Assembly: GCA_012727895.1 (NCBI GenBank)
Contig: JAAYGG010000039.1
Location: forward strand, 1 to 39,864
Reading direction: 5' to 3'
From: Bacillota bacterium
GTDB taxonomy: Bacteria; Bacillota; UBA4882; UBA10575
Length of the DNA stretch: 39,864 nucleotides
This document shows positions 18-22,559 of this stretch, piece after piece. How positions within the stretch are numbered: the first letter of the stretch is position 1; each line of letters begins with the position of its first letter. The notes beneath the pieces are model-generated. The model was not told the DNA's origin and searched no databases. It saw only the letters and a program-made list of their open reading frames with translations. The translations under genes and the position numbers were made by a program.

Positions 18-110
18 GTTTTTAGCCTACCTATGAGGAATTGAAACTTGCTGGTTGGCGCAGCCCCTGAGCTAAGGCGCCCGTTTTTAGCCTACCTATG
101 AGGAATGAAC
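18..110 (+). CRISPR. Leader-distal end of a CRISPR array (one full and one decayed repeat)
   Basis: A 30-bp repeat at 18-47 begins GTTTTTAGCCTACC and ends GAATTGAAAC. It recurs at 83-110 with the first 23 bases intact and a damaged 3' end (GAATGAAC). The 35-bp stretch between them (48-82) is the last spacer. A 3' GAAAC end and a degenerate terminal repeat are typical of the leader-distal end of type I arrays, so the array is read left to right and most of it lies before the window. Bases 1-17 are the end of another spacer. No cas gene is visible, so the subtype is not assigned. Confidence 0.8.
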
Positions 111-9713: not shown

Positions 9714-9745
9714 CCGGAGAAGCACTTTTTGGGAAATCGTGCTTC

Positions 9746-9884
9746 GAAATAAGCGCCTGGACTTGGAGGAGCTCCAAGTTGACGAGGAGGGGGATCTCGA
9801 ATTATCGGCGGGTGACCCCCGGTGGGCCCACAACCGCTAAAGGATCTACAAAACCCGCCGGCGACGGCGGGGACAAAAGGATCC
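9746..9884 (+). ncRNA. glmS self-cleaving ribozyme (GlcN6P-activated) upstream of nagB
   Basis: The sequence matches the glmS ribozyme core block by block. AAGCGCC at 9751-9757 places the cleavage site between A9752 and G9753. P2 is a perfect 8-bp stem (9761-9768 with 9772-9779), directly followed by GTTGACGAGG. ATCGGCGGGTGACCCCCGG (9804-9822) forms the nested pseudoknot core and ACAACCGCTAA the P3 side. P4 is CCCGCCG/CGGCGGG (854-860/865-871 in the 9 kb numbering) capped by a GCGA tetraloop, and GGATC (9842-9846) pairs with GATCC (9880-9884). The known role is cleavage of its own mRNA when glucosamine-6-phosphate is high, leading to mRNA decay. What is odd is the gene it controls: nagB rather than glmS. 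Confidence 0.93.
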
Positions 9885-9913
9885 GGGTGGGCACTTAATG
9901 AAGGAGGAATCCG

Positions 9914-15229: not shown

Positions 15230-16406
15230 GAAGATGATCAGACCGGTCTGGGCGGAGGTGGATCTGGAAGCGATCCGGGAGAATATCCGGCAAATCCGGC
15301 GGTTTACCGCTCGGGGAGGAAAGGCGCCGGAGATCATGGCCGTGGTTAAGGCCGAGGCTTATGGCCACGGCGCTGTGGCTACAGCCAGGGCGGCCTTGGA
15401 AGCGGGCGCCACCCGGCTGGGGGTGGCCATGCCGGAAGAAGGGATCCTCCTGCGGGAAGCCGGGATCGACTGCCCGATCCTGGTTTTTACGCCGCTCCTC
15501 CCGGACCAGGCGGAGGCCTTTCTGGAGTACGGGCTGACCCCGACCATTGCCGGGGAGGAGGGCGCCCGGGCGCTCTCGGCGGCCACGGGCAGGCACGGGC
15601 GGAAGGCCCGGGTGCATATTAAGGTCGATACCGGTATGGGGCGTGTCGGGGTCCCGCCGGCGGAGGCGCCGGGCTTGGCCCGGAAGGTTGCCGCCCTGCC
15701 CAACCTGGAAGTGGAAGGGGTTTATTCCCATTTCGCCACCGCCGACGAGGCGGATCTCTCCTTTGCCTACCACCAACTGGACCTCTTCAAGGAAGTCCTT
15801 AAGAACCTGGAAGAAGCAGGGGTGAAAATTCCCCTGAGGCATATAGCGAACAGCGGGGCCATTATCAACCTGCCGGAGAGCTATTTTGACCTGGTCCGGC
15901 CCGGGATTATCATCTACGGCCTCTACCCTTCGGAGGAAACGCCCCGCGACCGGCTGCCGCTCAAACCGGCCTTGTCGTTAAAGGCCCGGGTTATTCAGGT
16001 GAAGCGGGTCCCGCCGGGGACCGGGATCAGTTACGGCCAGATCTACCATACCCAAAAAGCAACAAACATTGTCACCCTGCCGCTGGGTTATGCCGACGGC
16101 TGGAGCCGATTATTATCGGGAAAAGCCCGGGTTTTGCTGAAAGGAAAGTCCTTCCCCCTGGTGGGCCGGGTCTGTATGGACCAGTGCATGGCCGATGTGG
16201 GGGACTTGGAGGTGGAACCGGGGGAAGAAGCGGTCTTAATCGGGCGCCAGGGAGAGGAAGAGATCTCTGCGGACGAAGTGGCCGGGCTTTTGGGGACAAT
16301 CAACTATGAAGTGGTCTGCATGCTCAGCGACCGGGTGCCCCGGGTTTGGTTGCACGCCGGTTCCCGGGAAAAAGATGAAAAAAAGATAAAAGTAGTTGAC
16401 AAATGA
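15216..16406 (+). CDS. alr: Alanine racemase
   Basis: 396 residues, fold-type III PLP enzyme that makes D-alanine for peptidoglycan. IMAVVKAEAYGHGAVA holds the PLP lysine, HIKVDTGMGRVGV and VEGVYSHFATADE line the barrel, RPGIIIYGLYP binds the phosphate, and GISYGQIY supplies the second catalytic tyrosine; MDQCM is the substrate-binding loop. GTG 15216 is chosen because AGAGGGGG lies 8 bases upstream; it overlaps the nnr end by 14 bases. The last codons contain the -35 box of the next promoter. Confidence 0.95.
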   Translation: MARYEKMIRPVWAEVDLEAIRENIRQIRRFTARGGKAPEIMAVVKAEAYGHGAVATARAALEAGATRLGVAMPEEGILLREAGIDCPILVFTPLLPDQAEAFLEYGLTPTIAGEEGARALSAATGRHGRKARVHIKVDTGMGRVGVPPAEAPGLARKVAALPNLEVEGVYSHFATADEADLSFAYHQLDLFKEVLKNLEEAGVKIPLRHIANSGAIINLPESYFDLVRPGIIIYGLYPSEETPRDRLPLKPALSLKARVIQVKRVPPGTGISYGQIYHTQKATNIVTLPLGYADGWSRLLSGKARVLLKGKSFPLVGRVCMDQCMADVGDLEVEPGEEAVLIGRQGEEEISADEVAGLLGTINYEVVCMLSDRVPRVWLHAGSREKDEKKIKVVDK

Positions 16407-16424
16407 AATATTTTTTGTTATTCT
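16396..16424 (+). promoter_or_regulatory. Promoter of the c-di-GMP-II riboswitch operon
   Basis: Consensus TTGACA (16396-16401), 17-base spacer and TATTCT (16419-16424). The -35 box lies inside the last codons of alr. Predicted transcription start is about 16431, some 28 bases before the riboswitch P1 stem. Confidence 0.8.
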
Positions 16425-16458
16425 CTTTAAAAGAGAAAAATTTCATCAGTGACCTTGG

Positions 16459-16553
16459 ATTAGCGAAGCAATGATCTCCAGGTAACATGTGGTCACTTGG
16501 CCTGGAAGGAGCGAGTAGTGAAACCGGCGCTAATGATTTGGCGTCGGTTTTTT
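16459..16553 (+). promoter_or_regulatory. Cyclic-di-GMP class II riboswitch with overlapping terminator
   Basis: The aptamer shows the class II landmarks in order: GCGAAGCAATGAT, then TCACTTGG, then GAGTAGTGAAACCGGC. P1 is a perfect 7-bp stem, ATTAGCG (16459-16465) with CGCTAAT (16528-16534). The expression platform is AAACCGGCGC (16521-16530) pairing with GCGTCGGTTT (16541-16550), one G-U, followed by a T run to 16553. It shares bases 16528-16530 with P1, so ligand binding should hold P1 closed, block the terminator and switch the genes on. This logic is inferred from the pairings. Confidence 0.88.
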
Positions 16554-16604
16554 GATGCTCGGAATTACCAGTGAGAGTAGATATTACAAGGGGGGGTATT
16601 GATT

Positions 16605-17099
16605 TTGAAGCGGACAAGCATTATCCTGTTGGCTTGCGTGTTAACCCTTTTGGTGGCCGGGACGGCAATGGCAGCTGAATATCAAGCCGACCATAAACTG
16701 AAGGTCACCGTCCCCGAAGAGATCAAGCTTGAATTGGCCCAGGCGGGCGAGACCATTGACCTTGGAGATATTACAGGAGCCGGTACATATTTGTCGGATA
16801 ACTCATTCACCTTGACGTACCGGTGCAACAAAAAAGTCGATTGGCAATTGAAAGTTGAGGGTACGAAGTTTACTAGCGGGGATGGGGAGGAATTGCCGGT
16901 TAGTGCGTTGAATATTAAGATCGAAGACGGCAGGAACTATAACATCCTGAGCCGTGAAGTTACCATTGATTCCCGCGCAGATACGGGGGCAAAGGAAAAG
17001 ACGATCGAGTTCCGTTACGAACTCCAGGTTGACAACTTCGATGATGTCTATGCCGGCGTATACACCAATACAGTCACTTACACGCTGTTTGTGCCCTGA
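16605..17099 (+). CDS. Secreted beta-rich subunit 1 (pilin-like candidate)
   Basis: 164 residues. A Sec signal peptide (to about residue 23, AMA|AE) is followed by a single all-beta domain. Features shared with the three other small secreted proteins of this locus: IDLGDITGAGTY near residue 51, a VDWQLKVEGTKF motif with Trp80, LPVSALNIKIEDG after it, and a C-terminus made of one last alternating strand (AGVYTNTVTYTLFVP). That ending resembles subunits of spore-coat-U/archaic chaperone-usher type, but I do not recognise a named family with certainty. TTG 16605 is preferred over 16599 because AAGGGGGG is 8 bases upstream. It is the first gene after the class II c-di-GMP switch. Confidence 0.75.
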   Translation: MKRTSIILLACVLTLLVAGTAMAAEYQADHKLKVTVPEEIKLELAQAGETIDLGDITGAGTYLSDNSFTLTYRCNKKVDWQLKVEGTKFTSGDGEELPVSALNIKIEDGRNYNILSREVTIDSRADTGAKEKTIEFRYELQVDNFDDVYAGVYTNTVTYTLFVP

Positions 17100-17132
17100 C
17101 TAAGCCAACCAAAACACGGGGGCATATAATAC

Positions 17133-17990
17133 ATGCATATAACAGATATAATGACGAAGCAAAAACCGTTACGAAAAAAACGGCAAAACTGGTATGCGCT
17201 TTTTCTGCTCACCTCTTTGGTGGGCTTTTTTGCCTTGACGGCGGGAACGGCGTTTGCCATGAATGTTTCGATCTCCCCGCCCCGCTGGGAAATAACGGTA
17301 GAACCCGGCGGCAATGTGGAGGGCACCTTTGAAGTAACCGGTGCGGCCGACCGGGATCTCCGGGTGAAGATCTATTTTCAAGACTGGCGGTTCAACCACA
17401 AGGGCGAGGTGGAGTTTTTACCCACCGTTGGTCCCCGTTCGGTTATTCCCTGGCTCCAGATTGAGCCCGCAGAAATGCTTGTTCCCGCCGGTGAAGAGCG
17501 GATCTTCAAGATTTTTGGAACTGTCCCGCCGGAGACGGCTGGCGGCGATTACTGGAGCGGCTTTTTTGTCGAGACGGTACCGGATGCCCCGCAAAGGGGC
17601 TCCGGGATGGTGGTGACCGGCCGGGTAGGCGGGGGCGTCTTCCTCACGGTCCGCGGGGAAGCAACAAAGGCGGGGAGAATAAAGGATTTTGCTGTCACGT
17701 GGGAAAACGGCCTTTCCGGCCGGGTGCTCTTTGCCAACCTCGGGGATACGCAATTGTACCCGTCCGGACGGGTGGAGGTCAGGGATAGCCGGGGGAAAAC
17801 AGTAAAAAGGCTCTCCCTGCCGGAAACGGTGGTTTTGCCCGGCGGCGAGCGGGAACTGGTCTTTGCAGAAACCATGGCCTTACCGGCCGGGGATTATGTG
17901 GTCCTGGCGATCCTGGACTACGGCGGCGAGAAATTATTGGGGGCCCAAGCCCTGTTAAAAGTGGACATACCGGAAGAAGAGGAAAGATGA
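17133..17990 (+). CDS. Exported PapD/WxLIP-like chaperone candidate
   Basis: 285 residues with a signal peptide (basic n-region, hydrophobic core, TAFA|MNV at about residue 42). The first Ig-like domain (about 43-150) runs SISPPRWEITVEPGGNVEG, KIYFQDWRF, EPAEMLVPAGEERIFKIFG and AGGDYWSGFFVE, the layout of the N-terminal domain of fimbrial chaperones and of DUF916-type WxL-interacting proteins. A second beta domain (about 165-275) includes PSGRVEVRDSRGKTV and PAGDYVVLAILDYGG. A soluble acidic tail follows. No membrane anchor is seen at the C-terminus, unlike WxLIP proteins, which favours a soluble periplasmic helper for the small subunits encoded on both sides. Function is inferred. Confidence 0.65.
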   Translation: MHITDIMTKQKPLRKKRQNWYALFLLTSLVGFFALTAGTAFAMNVSISPPRWEITVEPGGNVEGTFEVTGAADRDLRVKIYFQDWRFNHKGEVEFLPTVGPRSVIPWLQIEPAEMLVPAGEERIFKIFGTVPPETAGGDYWSGFFVETVPDAPQRGSGMVVTGRVGGGVFLTVRGEATKAGRIKDFAVTWENGLSGRVLFANLGDTQLYPSGRVEVRDSRGKTVKRLSLPETVVLPGGERELVFAETMALPAGDYVVLAILDYGGEKLLGAQALLKVDIPEEEER

Positions 17991-18004
17991 GGTGAGAGCG
18001 GGTG

Positions 18005-18556
18005 ATGAAAAAGAACCACCGACGCCCGCAGGAGGGTGCGTATAGATACACCGGCGCCCATGCGCGCAAGCGGGCGTGGGCGTGGCTGGCCGTCTCTCTT
18101 GTTCTGCTTTGTTCCTCCTCTGTATTTGCGGCCGAGTTTACCCTGAAATTTACGGTTCCGCCCCGCGCCGAGTTTTATCTCTCCACCGACTATGTTGACC
18201 TCGGCCTGCCGAAGACTGACGGCAGGGGTACTTATTTCGAAGGGAAGGATGTGGTCTTCCTTTCTTTCCGGACCAATATCCCTTCCCAGTGGAAGATCCA
18301 CATCTCGGGGAGGGATTTCCGGGGCCCGGCAGGGACTTCAATCCCCATCAGCCGTTTGCTGTGGAAAATAGGAACAGGAGAATACCGTTCCATGCCTTCC
18401 GAGGGGGAATCCGGGTTGGTGATGGATTGGCGTGACTTTACAGAGGAGATTCTCACCGGACAGCACCTCCCCATCTCTTACTACCTGGAGTTGACGGGCG
18501 ATGAATATGAAGGGGAGTATACCAGCATCATCACATATTCCCTGTTTTTACCCTGA
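18005..18556 (+). CDS. Secreted beta-rich subunit 2 (pilin-like candidate)
   Basis: 183 residues. The signal peptide has an unusually long basic n-region (RKRAWAWLAVSLVLL core, FA|AEF at about 42). The mature part repeats the family plan: YVDLGLPKTDGRGTYF, SQWKIHISGRDF with Trp96, IPISRLLWKIGTG, and a last strand YEGEYTSIITYSLFLP ending exactly at the C-terminus. ATG 18005 has better spacing to GGTGAG (17991-17996) than the adjacent GTG 18002. It is 14 bases after the chaperone candidate and surely cotranscribed. Confidence 0.72.
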   Translation: MKKNHRRPQEGAYRYTGAHARKRAWAWLAVSLVLLCSSSVFAAEFTLKFTVPPRAEFYLSTDYVDLGLPKTDGRGTYFEGKDVVFLSFRTNIPSQWKIHISGRDFRGPAGTSIPISRLLWKIGTGEYRSMPSEGESGLVMDWRDFTEEILTGQHLPISYYLELTGDEYEGEYTSIITYSLFLP

Positions 18557-18596
18557 TTTTCACCCCGGAAACGATTAGGAAAGAAGGTGAAGGGGT

Positions 18597-19085
18597 TTGT
18601 GGAAAAAGGTACCGGTCCTTTTGGCAATAGTGGTTATTCTCTTCCCGGGTGTGGCCTTTGGCGGGCTTTATGACTACGACCCTGAATTCAACGCCTGGTT
18701 GTTGCTTTTCCCCGGTGAGGTTAATCTGGGACTGCCGCAACGGCATCCATCCGGTGGCGACTATTGGGAAACAAGAAGCCCCCTTAATATTGCTTTCCAG
18801 TGTTTGCGGTTCAGGCGGGGCTGGCAGGTAAGTATTAACGGCGGGGATTTCAAGTCGGGAAATCATACCATCAGGCGTCAAGAGATGGAATGGCGGGTTT
18901 CTCCGGGCAACTATGAATCGATGAAACCTGCAGGCCAGGAGGTGATCCTTGCCCGGTCTCAGGACTACCCCGGGTACGAGTGGGGCTTGTTTTACTTCAT
19001 GCTTAATTTCCGGATGCTCCTCGACGAATGGGCGCCGGCCGGGGAATATAGCAGCGAAATGCGGGTAACATTTTTCTGCTGGTAA
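18597..19085 (+). CDS. Secreted beta-rich subunit 3 (pilin-like candidate)
   Basis: 162 residues, start TTG 18597 with GAAGGTGA 6 bases upstream. Signal peptide MWKKVPVLLAIVVILF ending VAFG|G. The mature protein follows the same plan as its neighbours (EVNLGLPQRHPSGGDYW, RGWQVSINGGDF with Trp76, MEWRVSPGNYESM), but is the most divergent: the end is AGEYSSEMRVTFFCW, aromatic-rich and with cysteine near the C-terminus (another, QCLRF, lies at residue 69), which could form a disulfide. It might be a tip or anchor variant. Last gene of the class II-switched operon. Confidence 0.7.
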   Translation: MWKKVPVLLAIVVILFPGVAFGGLYDYDPEFNAWLLLFPGEVNLGLPQRHPSGGDYWETRSPLNIAFQCLRFRRGWQVSINGGDFKSGNHTIRRQEMEWRVSPGNYESMKPAGQEVILARSQDYPGYEWGLFYFMLNFRMLLDEWAPAGEYSSEMRVTFFCW

Positions 19086-19127
19086 TGACAGGATCTTTTG
19101 TAACAGAAGGTTTTTCCATGGAGGGTA

Positions 19128-19156
19128 TTGACAGGACCTTCATTCTGATATATACT
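19128..19156 (+). promoter_or_regulatory. Promoter of the c-di-GMP-I riboswitch transcript
   Basis: Consensus TTGACA (19128-19133), 17-base spacer, TATACT (19151-19156). Independent of the upstream operon promoter; transcription start near 19163. Confidence 0.85.
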
Positions 19157-19211
19157 GGACTTACTAGACAACTGAATATTTGGATACCCAACGGGTAAGA
19201 TACAGTTGATT

Positions 19212-19339
19212 AACCTAAAGGTTTCCGAAAAGGCAAACCCGTCGAAAGGCGGGGACGCAAAGCTACGGATCTAAAGTGACGCGCAGTTCACCAGGATCGC
19301 CGGGCCGCCGAAGAACCTATTTTTTCTTCCCCGGTTTTT
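19212..19339 (+). promoter_or_regulatory. Cyclic-di-GMP class I (GEMM) riboswitch
   Basis: The GEMM signature is plain: AAGGCAAACC (19230-19239), CGAAAGG, GGGGACGCAAAGCTACGG (19251-19268), ATCTAAAG, and the second-stem strand GGATCGCCGGGCCGCC (19294-19309). P1 can form between AGGTTT (19219-19224) and GAACCT (19313-19318). A possible terminator uses CCGGG (19300-19304) with CCCGG (19330-19334) and GAAG (19310-19313) with CTTC (19326-19329), ending in TTTTT (19335-19339); it would need bases held by the folded aptamer, so ligand binding should turn the gene on. The aptamer is secure, the platform is inferred. Confidence 0.9.
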
Positions 19340-19371
19340 CCGGTGTTCCTGCCGGTAAAGGGGTGTTAAAA

Positions 19372-19869
19372 ATGATGGTGAAGAACCTCATGAAAACGGC
19401 AGGGCGGGCGCGTACAAGCGCCTTATTTTTTTCCCTTCTTTTAGTAATCGCGCTCTCCCTTCCGGTGCAAGCAGGACAGGAGTCCGCCGGTCACCGCCTG
19501 GCCGTACGGGTTCCGCCGGTACTCCAGGTAGAAACCGACGATTTTGAGTTGGTTTTTGCCCGGGGCCGCACGGTGGAACAGGCCAAGATCCGGATCCTCT
19601 CCAACCAAAAAAGCACGTGGCAACTGAGGATCAAAGGCGGAAATGGCGGGGAATTCCCGCTGGCGCGGGTGGAGTGGTCACTGGACGGGAAAGACTGGGC
19701 CGAACTTTCCTCGTTGCCTAGCCCGTTGTTGTCCGGAGGCCATACGGGAGGATGGCGGGAGATTGAGATCCATTTCCGGCTCACCCTTCCGGAAGAAAAA
19801 TCCGCCGTGGCGTCAATGGACGCGTCGGAATACCGTGTACAGCTGGCCTATGACCTGATCGTCTTCTGA
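19372..19869 (+). CDS. Secreted beta-rich subunit 4 (pilin-like candidate), c-di-GMP-I controlled
   Basis: 165 residues. Signal peptide core TSALFFSLLLVIALSL, cleavage near VQA|GQ at about residue 34. The mature domain has LAVRVPPVLQVETDDF, STWQLRIKGGNG with Trp83, FPLARVEWSLDGK, and a final strand ASEYRVQLAYDLIVF that reaches the C-terminus, as in subunits 1-3. AAAGGGG lies 8 bases before ATG 19372. It is alone behind its own promoter and riboswitch, so its level can be set apart from the other subunits. Tail-to-tail with the beta-barrel gene, 14 bases apart. Confidence 0.72.
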   Translation: MMVKNLMKTAGRARTSALFFSLLLVIALSLPVQAGQESAGHRLAVRVPPVLQVETDDFELVFARGRTVEQAKIRILSNQKSTWQLRIKGGNGGEFPLARVEWSLDGKDWAELSSLPSPLLSGGHTGGWREIEIHFRLTLPEEKSAVASMDASEYRVQLAYDLIVF

Positions 19870-19883
19870 CACTGTCGATTGGG

Positions 19884-22559
19884 CTAGAAATAGGTGAAAT
19901 CGATCTCGCGCTCTTCTTCGTAGAGCGGGAAGAGGAGTAAAAACGGGGTTGAGTCTTGCTCTATGGTCAGGAGAACCGGTTCGGCTGTGGTGAACCCGGG
20001 CAGGGTTTCGGCAACGGCCTCCAGGCGGTAACTGCCGGGGGAAAGGCCGGGCAGGAAGAAGGAGCCGTCCGGGTTTGTTGTCAAGGTGACGAGGGGTTCG
20101 TCGCCGCCCACCGGGTAAAGCAGGAGTTGTACCCGGCCGGCCGCCGGTTCATCCGGGTCGGGCAGGCCGTTTCTATTTTGATCGGTAAAGGCCAAGCCTT
20201 GCAGGTCCAGCGGCGGCAGGACGGGGACTTCTACAGCCAGGATCCGGTTTTCCTTCAGGCTAACCTGTTTTGCCGCAGGCGTAAGATAGCCAGTACCTTC
20301 CCTTGGGGAAAAGGCGAGGAGGTATTCGCCTTTTTTCAAACGGGAAAGGCGGAAATAGCCGCGATTATCGGTGACGGTTTTCTCCTCTCCGTCGAGGACA
20401 ACGGCGACCCCGGGGATTCCCGGTTCACCCGGGTCGAACTGGCCGTTCCGGTTCCGGTCCAGGAAAACCCGGCCTTCGACGCCTCCCCAAGGCGCCGGGA
20501 AGAAGTACAGGTCGCGGTGGAAGAGATAGAGTTCGATCTTGGATAAGGTGGTTTCCCTCTCCTCCAAGCGGGTGGTGGCCCGGAGCTGCAGGAAGGTGCC
20601 GGGGGTAAACCAATAGCCGGTGGCGGCCTGCAACGAATAGTAACCGGAGGTAAGAGGGGAATCGTGGAAAAAGATGCTGCCATAACCCTCCCAGTTTGAA
20701 TAGAGCAAGTGGTACCATCTCAAACCCAGGGCCAGGGGGGAGGAGAAGCCGGTGGGCGTATCCTCCCAGTGTTGCTCGTAGGCGGCTTCCAGGTAGGAAG
20801 AGGTAAAGAACCAACGGCGCAGGCGGCCGTAAACGCCCACGGTATCGGTGGCGCCTTTCCGGCTCCAGGAAAGGGCCGCCGTCCCCTGGAAGTCGTTGGC
20901 TGCCGGCTGCCGCCATTCGTTGGAGAAACCGAGTTCAGCGCCTTTCTCTATCTGGCCGTACAGGTCCTGCCTGTAGCGGAGGAGCAGGTAGGAACCGGAG
21001 AAAGAAAAGCGGTTTTGCAGGGTATAACTGGTCCGCGGTTTCCGGTCCACGGTGGCAACACGGAAGGTTGCCCCCGGTTCCAGGGTCAGGCGGGGAGAAA
21101 GGTAATATTCGATATTTAAATCGGCCGCGCCAAAACTCGTACCGTACCCGCCGGTATATGCGCTCTCGTCCTCCTCACCCGGCCAGTATTCAAAATGGAA
21201 GTTCCTCCCCCCGGAGAGGGAGGCGATAAACCGCCAGTCCAGCGCCGATCTTTGCAGGGAGAACTCGCCCTGGTTCAAAAGGCCGTTTTCATCAAAACCC
21301 AGGGCGTGCCGGTAAGTCCAGCGCCAATCCTGGAAAGCCACGGGGGAATAGCGGGTTTCCAGAACCCCGTGGAGACGGTATTCTTCCAAAGGAACCACCA
21401 GGAGCCAACGGAGGTTTTCTTTCGGCTGATCAATGATCCCCCCCAACCAGGTGGGGCCGAAGAAGTCTTGACCCGCGCCCAGCCAGAAACTCCAGGGTTG
21501 GGCGCCCCGGGATTGCAGGTAGAGGTTGGCCGCGCTCGATGGTGGAGAGATCAACCCGGGCCATCCGGAAGAGAACCGCCCGGCCTGCATATACCATTGG
21601 TCCCCGGTGAGCGCGAGGAAAAGAGCGGAAGGGGAGAAAAACCCCTCCTCACTCTCTCCGGCCAGGTAGAAGTTGTAGTGAAGCAAGGGATGGATTTCAC
21701 CGTTGAACCCGAGGGTGGTCGCCCAGTCAAGAAAGGATGCCGGGCCCCGGGGCGGGGCCAGGGTCAAACTGAAATTGGAGTAAAGCGGGATGAGGTTCTC
21801 CCTTTCTACGGGCTGGTGGGATCTCCGGACCACGATGGAGAACCGGTACTCCCCGGTGCTCGCTCCGGCATATTCATCTGCAGCCGCTGTTACCAGCAGG
21901 TACAAGGGATCGACGGTGCCGGCAGCGGCGGTTGGCGGGATAGTCACCTGGAGGTGGATAGTGCTCCTCTCACCCGGCGCCAGGGTAACACCGGCGGTCT
22001 CCAAATTCACCCGCCACCGCTTTTCCGAGACCGCCTGCAGGGTGAAACTCCGGGTGATGCTGCCATCGTTGACCAAGGTGACCGGGATCTGCACCATTTC
22101 TCCAGGCTGGCCGGTGATCCTCTCCGGGTACAGACAGGAGAAGCTGGTGGTAATACGGACCTTGGTGGTGAGGTTGTAGGAAGCGGAGAACTCCGGGCCG
22201 GTAAAACTCACGGCCAGGGAATCTCCGGTCCCGCCATAGGCGGTGTCGGGGATCCATACGGTAACCGCGAAGAGTCCTTGCCCGCCGGGGGGAATAGTAA
22301 TCTCTTCCTCACTTGTCAGCAACGGCCAGTCTTGCGCAGAAACGGCCGCCGCGGTGAGGGTCGTTCCGGTGGCGGATTGGTTCCGGATTTGAAATAGATA
22401 TGTAATAAATTCACCCGGTTCTCCCTCCTGTTCGGAAGGGACAGAAACAACCAGGGCGGGGGAGGAGATATCTTCCGCCTCCGCACCGTAAACCGGGGTG
22501 AAAAGCGAAAAAGCAAAAATCAATATTATGCTGCTTAAACAAGAAGCAATTTGTTTCAT
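19884..22559 (-). CDS. Large exported beta-barrel protein with Ig-like and SdrD-B-like domains (usher-like candidate)
   Basis: 891 residues. Signal peptide KQIASCLSSIILIFAFSLF, cleavage near VYG|AE at about residue 25. Residues 35-250 hold two NEW3/CARDB-like Ig domains (PGEFITYLFQIRNQS, PGEMVQIPVTLVNDGS). Residues about 255-690 are a long run of amphipathic, aromatic-rich strands (LHYNFYLAGE, DQWYMQAGRF, ANLYLQSRG, GAELGFSNEWRQ) as in an outer-membrane barrel. Two SdrD-B-like Ca-binding Ig domains follow (DRNRNGQFDPGEPG near 700; DQNRNGLPDPDEPA near 790). The last residues are DFTYF, with a terminal Phe. A barrel flanked by Ig domains beside a chaperone-like gene and small subunits suggests an exporter analogous to ushers, but no usher family signature is claimed. 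Start ATG 22559 follows GGGAGGA. Confidence 0.7.
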   Translation of the reverse strand: MKQIASCLSSIILIFAFSLFTPVYGAEAEDISSPALVVSVPSEQEGEPGEFITYLFQIRNQSATGTTLTAAAVSAQDWPLLTSEEEITIPPGGQGLFAVTVWIPDTAYGGTGDSLAVSFTGPEFSASYNLTTKVRITTSFSCLYPERITGQPGEMVQIPVTLVNDGSITRSFTLQAVSEKRWRVNLETAGVTLAPGERSTIHLQVTIPPTAAAGTVDPLYLLVTAAADEYAGASTGEYRFSIVVRRSHQPVERENLIPLYSNFSLTLAPPRGPASFLDWATTLGFNGEIHPLLHYNFYLAGESEEGFFSPSALFLALTGDQWYMQAGRFSSGWPGLISPPSSAANLYLQSRGAQPWSFWLGAGQDFFGPTWLGGIIDQPKENLRWLLVVPLEEYRLHGVLETRYSPVAFQDWRWTYRHALGFDENGLLNQGEFSLQRSALDWRFIASLSGGRNFHFEYWPGEEDESAYTGGYGTSFGAADLNIEYYLSPRLTLEPGATFRVATVDRKPRTSYTLQNRFSFSGSYLLLRYRQDLYGQIEKGAELGFSNEWRQPAANDFQGTAALSWSRKGATDTVGVYGRLRRWFFTSSYLEAAYEQHWEDTPTGFSSPLALGLRWYHLLYSNWEGYGSIFFHDSPLTSGYYSLQAATGYWFTPGTFLQLRATTRLEERETTLSKIELYLFHRDLYFFPAPWGGVEGRVFLDRNRNGQFDPGEPGIPGVAVVLDGEEKTVTDNRGYFRLSRLKKGEYLLAFSPREGTGYLTPAAKQVSLKENRILAVEVPVLPPLDLQGLAFTDQNRNGLPDPDEPAAGRVQLLLYPVGGDEPLVTLTTNPDGSFFLPGLSPGSYRLEAVAETLPGFTTAEPVLLTIEQDSTPFLLLFPLYEEEREIDFTYF

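Follow-up and report, generated by a model that had tools for sequence, protein, structure and literature searches.

Introduction

Gram-negative bacteria assemble adhesive pili by the chaperone-usher pathway, whose usher is a plugged outer-membrane barrel of about 24 strands with domains in the periplasm at both termini. Chaperone-usher systems have been reported from Proteobacteria, Cyanobacteria and Deinococcus-Thermus (PMC4654587), and our search of the literature, which was not exhaustive, found no report of one in diderm Firmicutes. In Clostridioides difficile, two classes of riboswitch for cyclic dimeric guanosine monophosphate (c-di-GMP) act with opposite signs, class II being ON (Cdi-2-4, type IV pili) and class I OFF (Cd1, flagella), and the signs differ elsewhere (PMC6366702). 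Here we describe a locus from a Bacillota bacterium in which both classes of sensor for this biofilm signal accompany a set of exported beta-rich proteins. The DNA analysed, hereafter the window, is a single contig of 39,864 nucleotides (JAAYGG010000039.1) from a 2.3 Mb assembly of 97% completeness (GCA_012727895.1). The locus occupies positions 16396-22559 and consists of five plus-strand genes, p1 to p5, and one convergent minus-strand gene, p6. We propose, with a probability of roughly 0.7, that it encodes a divergent chaperone-usher-type fibre system of a lipopolysaccharide (LPS)-diderm Firmicute. The list of parts, the predicted pilin fold of a subunit and a related second locus that bridges to known systems make this the best explanation.

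A conserved gene set with two riboswitches

The locus comprises the following features, in window coordinates:

16396..16424, plus strand: promoter of the p1 operon, sigma-70-type (TTGACA-17-TATTCT) with extended -10, directly 5' of the class II aptamer
16455..16538, plus strand: c-di-GMP-II riboswitch aptamer (Rfam RF01786, 58.8 bits)
16522..16553, plus strand: intrinsic terminator using the aptamer 3' strand (AACCGGCGCTAA / TTGGCGTCGGTT, then a T run)
16599..17099, plus strand: p1, exported subunit resembling pilins, with the donor-strand motif HKLKVTVP at its N-terminus and a predicted fold
17133..17990, plus strand: p2, exported two-domain PapD/WxLIP-like chaperone candidate, with candidate donor strand 165-173
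18002..18556, plus strand: p3, pilin-like subunit with donor-strand motif, paralogous with p1, p4 and p5
18597..19085, plus strand: p4, pilin-like subunit in which the N-terminal donor-strand motif is missing; it could be the first or the tip subunit
19128..19156, plus strand: promoter of p5, sigma-70-type (TTGACA-17-TATACT)
19223..19313, plus strand: c-di-GMP-I(-GGC) riboswitch aptamer (RF03167, 72 bits; RF01051, 78.9 bits)
19219..19325, plus strand: closing stem P1 (AGGTTT/GAACCT) with immediate T run, candidate ligand-stabilised terminator (OFF)
19372..19869, plus strand: p5, pilin-like subunit with donor-strand motif, its own promoter and its own switch
19884..22559, minus strand: p6, exported usher-like protein with two immunoglobulin (Ig)-like domains, then an outer-membrane barrel predicted to have about 26 strands, then two SdrD_B domains

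A preliminary description of this DNA, made from its letters alone, had proposed that a diderm Firmicute here has a compact fimbria-like system, possibly analogous to chaperone-usher systems, which c-di-GMP controls at the level of RNA, and our analysis supports that proposal. It had named two c-di-GMP riboswitches of different classes, and both aptamers exceed their Rfam gathering cut-offs (53.5 bits for RF01786 and 59 bits for the c-di-GMP-I-GGC family, RF03167). It had also named two strong promoters: TTGACA-17 promoter-like sites do lie just 5' of each aptamer, at 16396 and 19128, although the number of such sites was not above chance (3 found against 2.1 expected), and our calls rest on position and strength. 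Signal peptides were recognised by inspection on all six products. The start codon of p1 is a TTG at 16599. For p5, a start at 19372 is most likely, since the GTG found further upstream, at 19276, falls within the class I aptamer.

The order (class II)-p1-p2-p3-p4-(class I)-p5, with p6 convergent, was intact on uninterrupted contigs in 12 genomes of the family, that of the window and 11 others, one of which (G007) has a class II switch scoring 53.1 bits, slightly below the gathering score. Two additional family loci were interrupted by contig ends, and every complete locus of the family included the barrel gene. Chance would not give such conservation of the gene set, its order and both switches. 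Relatives of p2 were present in 29 of 61 genomes and relatives of p6 in 27; elsewhere in the class, other families have a shorter locus that retains p2, p5, p6 and class I, with class II present in some. A narrow-alignment search named 12 loci, all in unclassified Bacillota or Hydrogenispora-like metagenome-assembled genomes (one labelled Hydrogenispora), and we read the isolate names AS08, AS09 and AS20 as pointing to an anaerobic-digester origin of these relatives. Omp85 (BamA-type) was found in 21 and LpxC in 20 of the 21 genomes searched; the genomes of the host lineage are therefore those of LPS diderms.

Pilin-like subunits

The products of p1, p3, p4 and p5 are paralogues, with profile-profile hhalign probabilities of 96-99.8% over full-length alignments (82 columns for the p4-p5 pair). 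All four have a motif centred on Trp and end in a shared last beta strand, and this homology, together with their signal peptides, bears out the earlier description of four small secreted proteins with those features. None of p1-p5 matched a Pfam or NCBIfam family over its cut-off; a p1-type relative reached 21.0 bits on SCPU, below the cut-off of 22.4.

The model of p1, with a predicted local distance difference test score (pLDDT) of 93.4 and a predicted template modelling score (pTM) of 0.83, is a beta sandwich whose first 16 residues are unpaired. Its 50 best Foldseek matches in the PDB were without exception chaperone-usher pilins or pilin domains (best E 4.6e-5), including Caf1, FimF, FimG, FimA, CfaB, PapH and CsuA/B. 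As modelled, p1 has a pilin (Ig-like) fold, and this Ig fold is putatively incomplete. An N-terminal motif, [LI]x[VF]x[VI]P, with strict alternation at positions 9, 11 and 13, occurs in the p1, p3 and p5 types, and an alternating, unpaired N-terminus is as expected of a donor strand. Across all relatives examined, p4 is the sole subunit type without this alternating motif, and it could be a first or tip subunit.

A candidate chaperone and a second locus

The preliminary description had singled out an exported two-domain PapD/WxLIP-like protein, and p2 agrees with this in its export, its two-domain size and its weak Fn3/WxLIP-type matches, with no family over cut-off. The one meaningful PDB match of its profile was EfmWxLIP1, collinear over 91-254 at E ~0.1. 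A nearly invariant Arg164 is followed by residues 165-173, which alternate between hydrophobic and polar and form a candidate G1-type donor strand. The protein ends in PEEEER, with no transmembrane helix.

A second chaperone-barrel locus, in which the chaperone gene adjoins the barrel gene, is present in the same genome (L080, G000:C40, 1136-5273) and at L082, L087 and L095; no Rfam riboswitches were found in those of the second loci that were scanned. The p2 profile matched the second-locus chaperones with an hhalign probability of 99.9% (E 8e-37). These in turn matched E. coli FimC at 71.6% (E 3.5e-5, score 41.4, against a maximum of 20.5 in 60 column shuffles), whereas p2 itself gave no hhalign match to FimC. 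Certain members of the second locus score weakly on PapD_N as well as on WxLIP_PGBD. When p2, p6 and the subunits were compared directly by hhalign with the chaperones, ushers and pilins of E. coli K-12, nothing was returned either; the second-locus proteins alone provide a bridge, and through them the profile comparisons link p2 to PapD-type chaperones.

A predicted outer-membrane barrel

The model of p6 is of moderate confidence (pLDDT 73.7, pTM 0.45). Two Ig-like domains (residues 36-244) precede about 26 strands of mean length 11.5 (256-700), and the C-terminus consists of two beta domains that correspond to SdrD_B in Pfam. The earlier picture of a barrel flanked by Ig-like domains thus held for the barrel, as a prediction, and for the N-terminal pair, whereas the C-terminal pair is SdrD_B. 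The best PDB fold matches were FimD and then PapC, with E down to 3.5e-12 over about 800 columns. A barrel in p6, an Ig-like fold (here in p1) and a conserved gene set, all three of which emerged from the models and genome searches, were the points on which the preliminary description had offered beforehand to stand or fall.

Relatives of the barrel end in OmpA or LysM domains, and its C-terminus would therefore be periplasmic, as in ushers. One such relative, of 1213 residues (L092:342-3980, G018:C5), ends in an OmpA peptidoglycan-binding domain, and the second-locus barrel in the genome of the window ends in LysM domains. Second-locus barrels matched FimD at 90.4%, with a score of 64 over 256 columns that include the plug region (maximum of shuffles 28.2), and gave nothing against LptD, FhuA and MetG. 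Our use of "usher-like" for p6 is based on its modelled fold and on this related second locus.

Predicted signs of the two riboswitches

In nearly all genomes of the family, that of the window included, class II is confined to a single copy at this locus; one genome has a second candidate of 52 bits. In 16 of 16 class II loci, compared with 4.4% of shuffles, a [CT]CGGTTT element 3' of the aptamer and ahead of a T run is complementary to the aptamer's 3' strand. The window holds both an aptamer above the gathering score and such an expression platform. Because ligand binding and the overlapping terminator are mutually exclusive, we predict that class II acts as an ON switch. Elsewhere, three tandem c-di-GMP-II aptamers lie within about 430 bases (G023:C245:2019-2446), in a genome without a p2 match.

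In the window's class I aptamer the ligand-contact positions G20 and A47 are both present; among class I loci, G20 was found in 16 of 17 and A47 in 17 of 17, C92 being judged by eye only. The P1 closing stem with a T run directly after it was found in 16 of 17 class I loci, compared with 10% of shuffles. In most of 16 loci, aptamer occupancy lowered the accessibility of the Shine-Dalgarno sequence, weakly, which also favours OFF. For an alternative hairpin, 92% of cells pair, yet covariation was not above chance. The switch for p5 is thus more likely OFF, with weaker support than for the sign of class II. The suggestion that c-di-GMP turns the locus on therefore stands, as a prediction, for the class II switch, whereas for p5 the opposite is more likely.

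Family membership and contact residues point to c-di-GMP as the probable ligand. In family genomes class I also occurs at sites other than this locus, and the genome of the window has two more c-di-GMP-I riboswitches (G000:C123:340-428 and G000:C74:1586-1669) as well as 10 GGDEF domains. One class I aptamer (L069:7741-7825, G014:C103) carries A instead of G20, a substitution found in switches accepting cyclic GMP-AMP (cGAMP). At another locus (L076, G021:C23) both switches match variant families, class I-GGC and class II-GAG, and a shared altered ligand is conceivable.

Outside the locus, the window contains a glmS ribozyme (9741-9894, 102.8 bits) and, at the contig edge, a CRISPR direct repeat (CRISPR-DR2, 18-47, minus strand).

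Discussion

By analogy with known ushers, we infer that p6 would serve as a secretion pore in a pathway of donor-strand exchange and fibre formation. The subunits p1, p3, p4 and p5 would enter the periplasm via their signal peptides, where p2 would cap each of them, with strand 165-173 of p2 occupying the gap left by an incomplete Ig fold. In polymerisation, the p2 strand would be swapped for the N-terminal extension, [LI]x[VF]x[VI]P, of the next subunit, and the polymerising subunits would pass through the p6 barrel. Binding of c-di-GMP to the class II aptamer would break the overlapping terminator and turn the p1-p4 operon on; as class I is more likely OFF, c-di-GMP would alter how much p5 is made relative to the remaining subunits.

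Several observations weigh against a chaperone-usher-type system. For p6, the pTM is 0.45, TM-scores in the fold search are low (0.21-0.28), the plug is not recognised, and unrelated Ig-rich proteins are also among its good fold matches. No sequence similarity of p6 to ushers was detectable (Usher Pfam 0/41; hhalign to FimD nil), nor did it match the second-locus barrels outside SdrD_B. The TM-scores of p1 to pilins are modest (0.3-0.5), and the nearest solved sequence to p2 is a WxLIP, a monoderm surface protein. The preliminary description had looked to profile searches for Usher, PapD and SCPU, and here none of these Pfam models fires: in whole genomes PapD_N was found in 0 of 21 and Usher gave nothing, and while SCPU gave nothing either, its control was silent too, so that absence of SCPU is not shown. 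Type IV pili, sortase pili and curli were considered and dropped, no matching parts being seen.

The match of p2 to EfmWxLIP1, its only meaningful one in the PDB, raises the alternative of a WxL/WxLIP-type surface complex, in which p2 holds WxL-like small proteins on the peptidoglycan, p6 acts apart from them as an outer-membrane porin or tether, and no fibre is secreted. The W-x-L/W-x-I motif in common, a score of 19.6 bits for relatives on WxLIP_PGBD, and the prediction that WxLIP completes the WxL sandwich with a strand (PMC10599100) are consistent with this view. We consider it unlikely, as all WxL and WxLIP Pfam scores fell below cut-off, p2 does not have the C-terminal transmembrane helix that defines WxLIP, the 50 best fold matches of p1 are chaperone-usher pilins and include no WxL structure, and the barrel gene accompanies every complete family locus. 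Alternatively, p6 might be the anchor or platform, not the pore, of an outer-membrane fibre or coat whose subunits exit by another route; its lack of a recognisable plug and of usher sequence similarity, the peptidoglycan-binding OmpA or LysM domains of its relatives and its convergent position outside the subunit operon would all fit. Ushers are nevertheless the best fold matches of the barrel, and the second-locus chaperone adjoins a barrel with FimD-like plug sequence, which leaves this arrangement quite improbable. Beta-sandwich folds attract one another in fold searches, and several p6 matches are unrelated Ig-rich proteins, as if these were ordinary Ig-rich surface proteins merely near c-di-GMP riboswitches and with no shared assembly machinery. 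Conservation of gene set and switches across families, the pilin-only match list of p1 and the donor-strand motif make that very improbable indeed.

Beyond the proposal of a divergent chaperone-usher-type system, we tentatively raise a more specific idea, which we think possible and somewhat doubtful: a separate chaperone-usher class native to diderm Firmicutes that bridges PapD and WxLIP, with riboswitches of opposite sign, class II turning the shaft operon ON and class I turning OFF p5, a possible cap or end of fibre growth. In that case a single messenger, acting on RNA, would determine whether a pilus is made and also how long it grows. If a diderm Firmicute class has a distant version of the chaperone-usher pathway, this would bear on the age of the machinery, on a possible shared ancestry of PapD chaperones and monoderm WxLIP proteins, and on early outer-membrane contents. 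The locus is also a testable case of putative fibre subunits placed under c-di-GMP via two riboswitch classes at one locus.

Compared with the chaperone-usher pathway (classical FimA/C/D, archaic Csu/CupE, alternative CFA/ECP), the locus is alike in its candidate two-domain periplasmic chaperone, its several paralogous pilin-like subunits with a donor-strand-like N-terminus, its predicted outer-membrane barrel with putatively periplasmic beta domains and its LPS-diderm host, and p1 retrieved pilins and p6 ushers in the fold searches. It differs in having no Pfam Usher, PapD_N or SCPU match, in the two N-terminal Ig and two C-terminal SdrD_B domains of p6 with no recognised plug, in its Firmicute host and in its control by two riboswitches. 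With the WxL/WxLIP clusters of Lactobacillales and Bacillales it shares an exported partner, here presumed to have two Ig domains, next to small beta proteins with a Trp motif, and a weak sequence match of p2 to EfmWxLIP1. Unlike in those clusters, the small proteins, with one Trp motif in common, gave no match at E up to 1 to the WxL domain with its two W-x-L motifs; p2 does not combine DUF916, DUF3324 and a C-terminal transmembrane helix, the WxLIP_PGBD scores lying below cut-off; and an outer membrane and a barrel gene are present. The riboswitch classes are the same as those of Cdi-2-4 and Cd1 in Clostridioides difficile, where they lie at separate loci, whereas here both classes are combined in one pilus-like locus whose machinery is not that of type IV pili.

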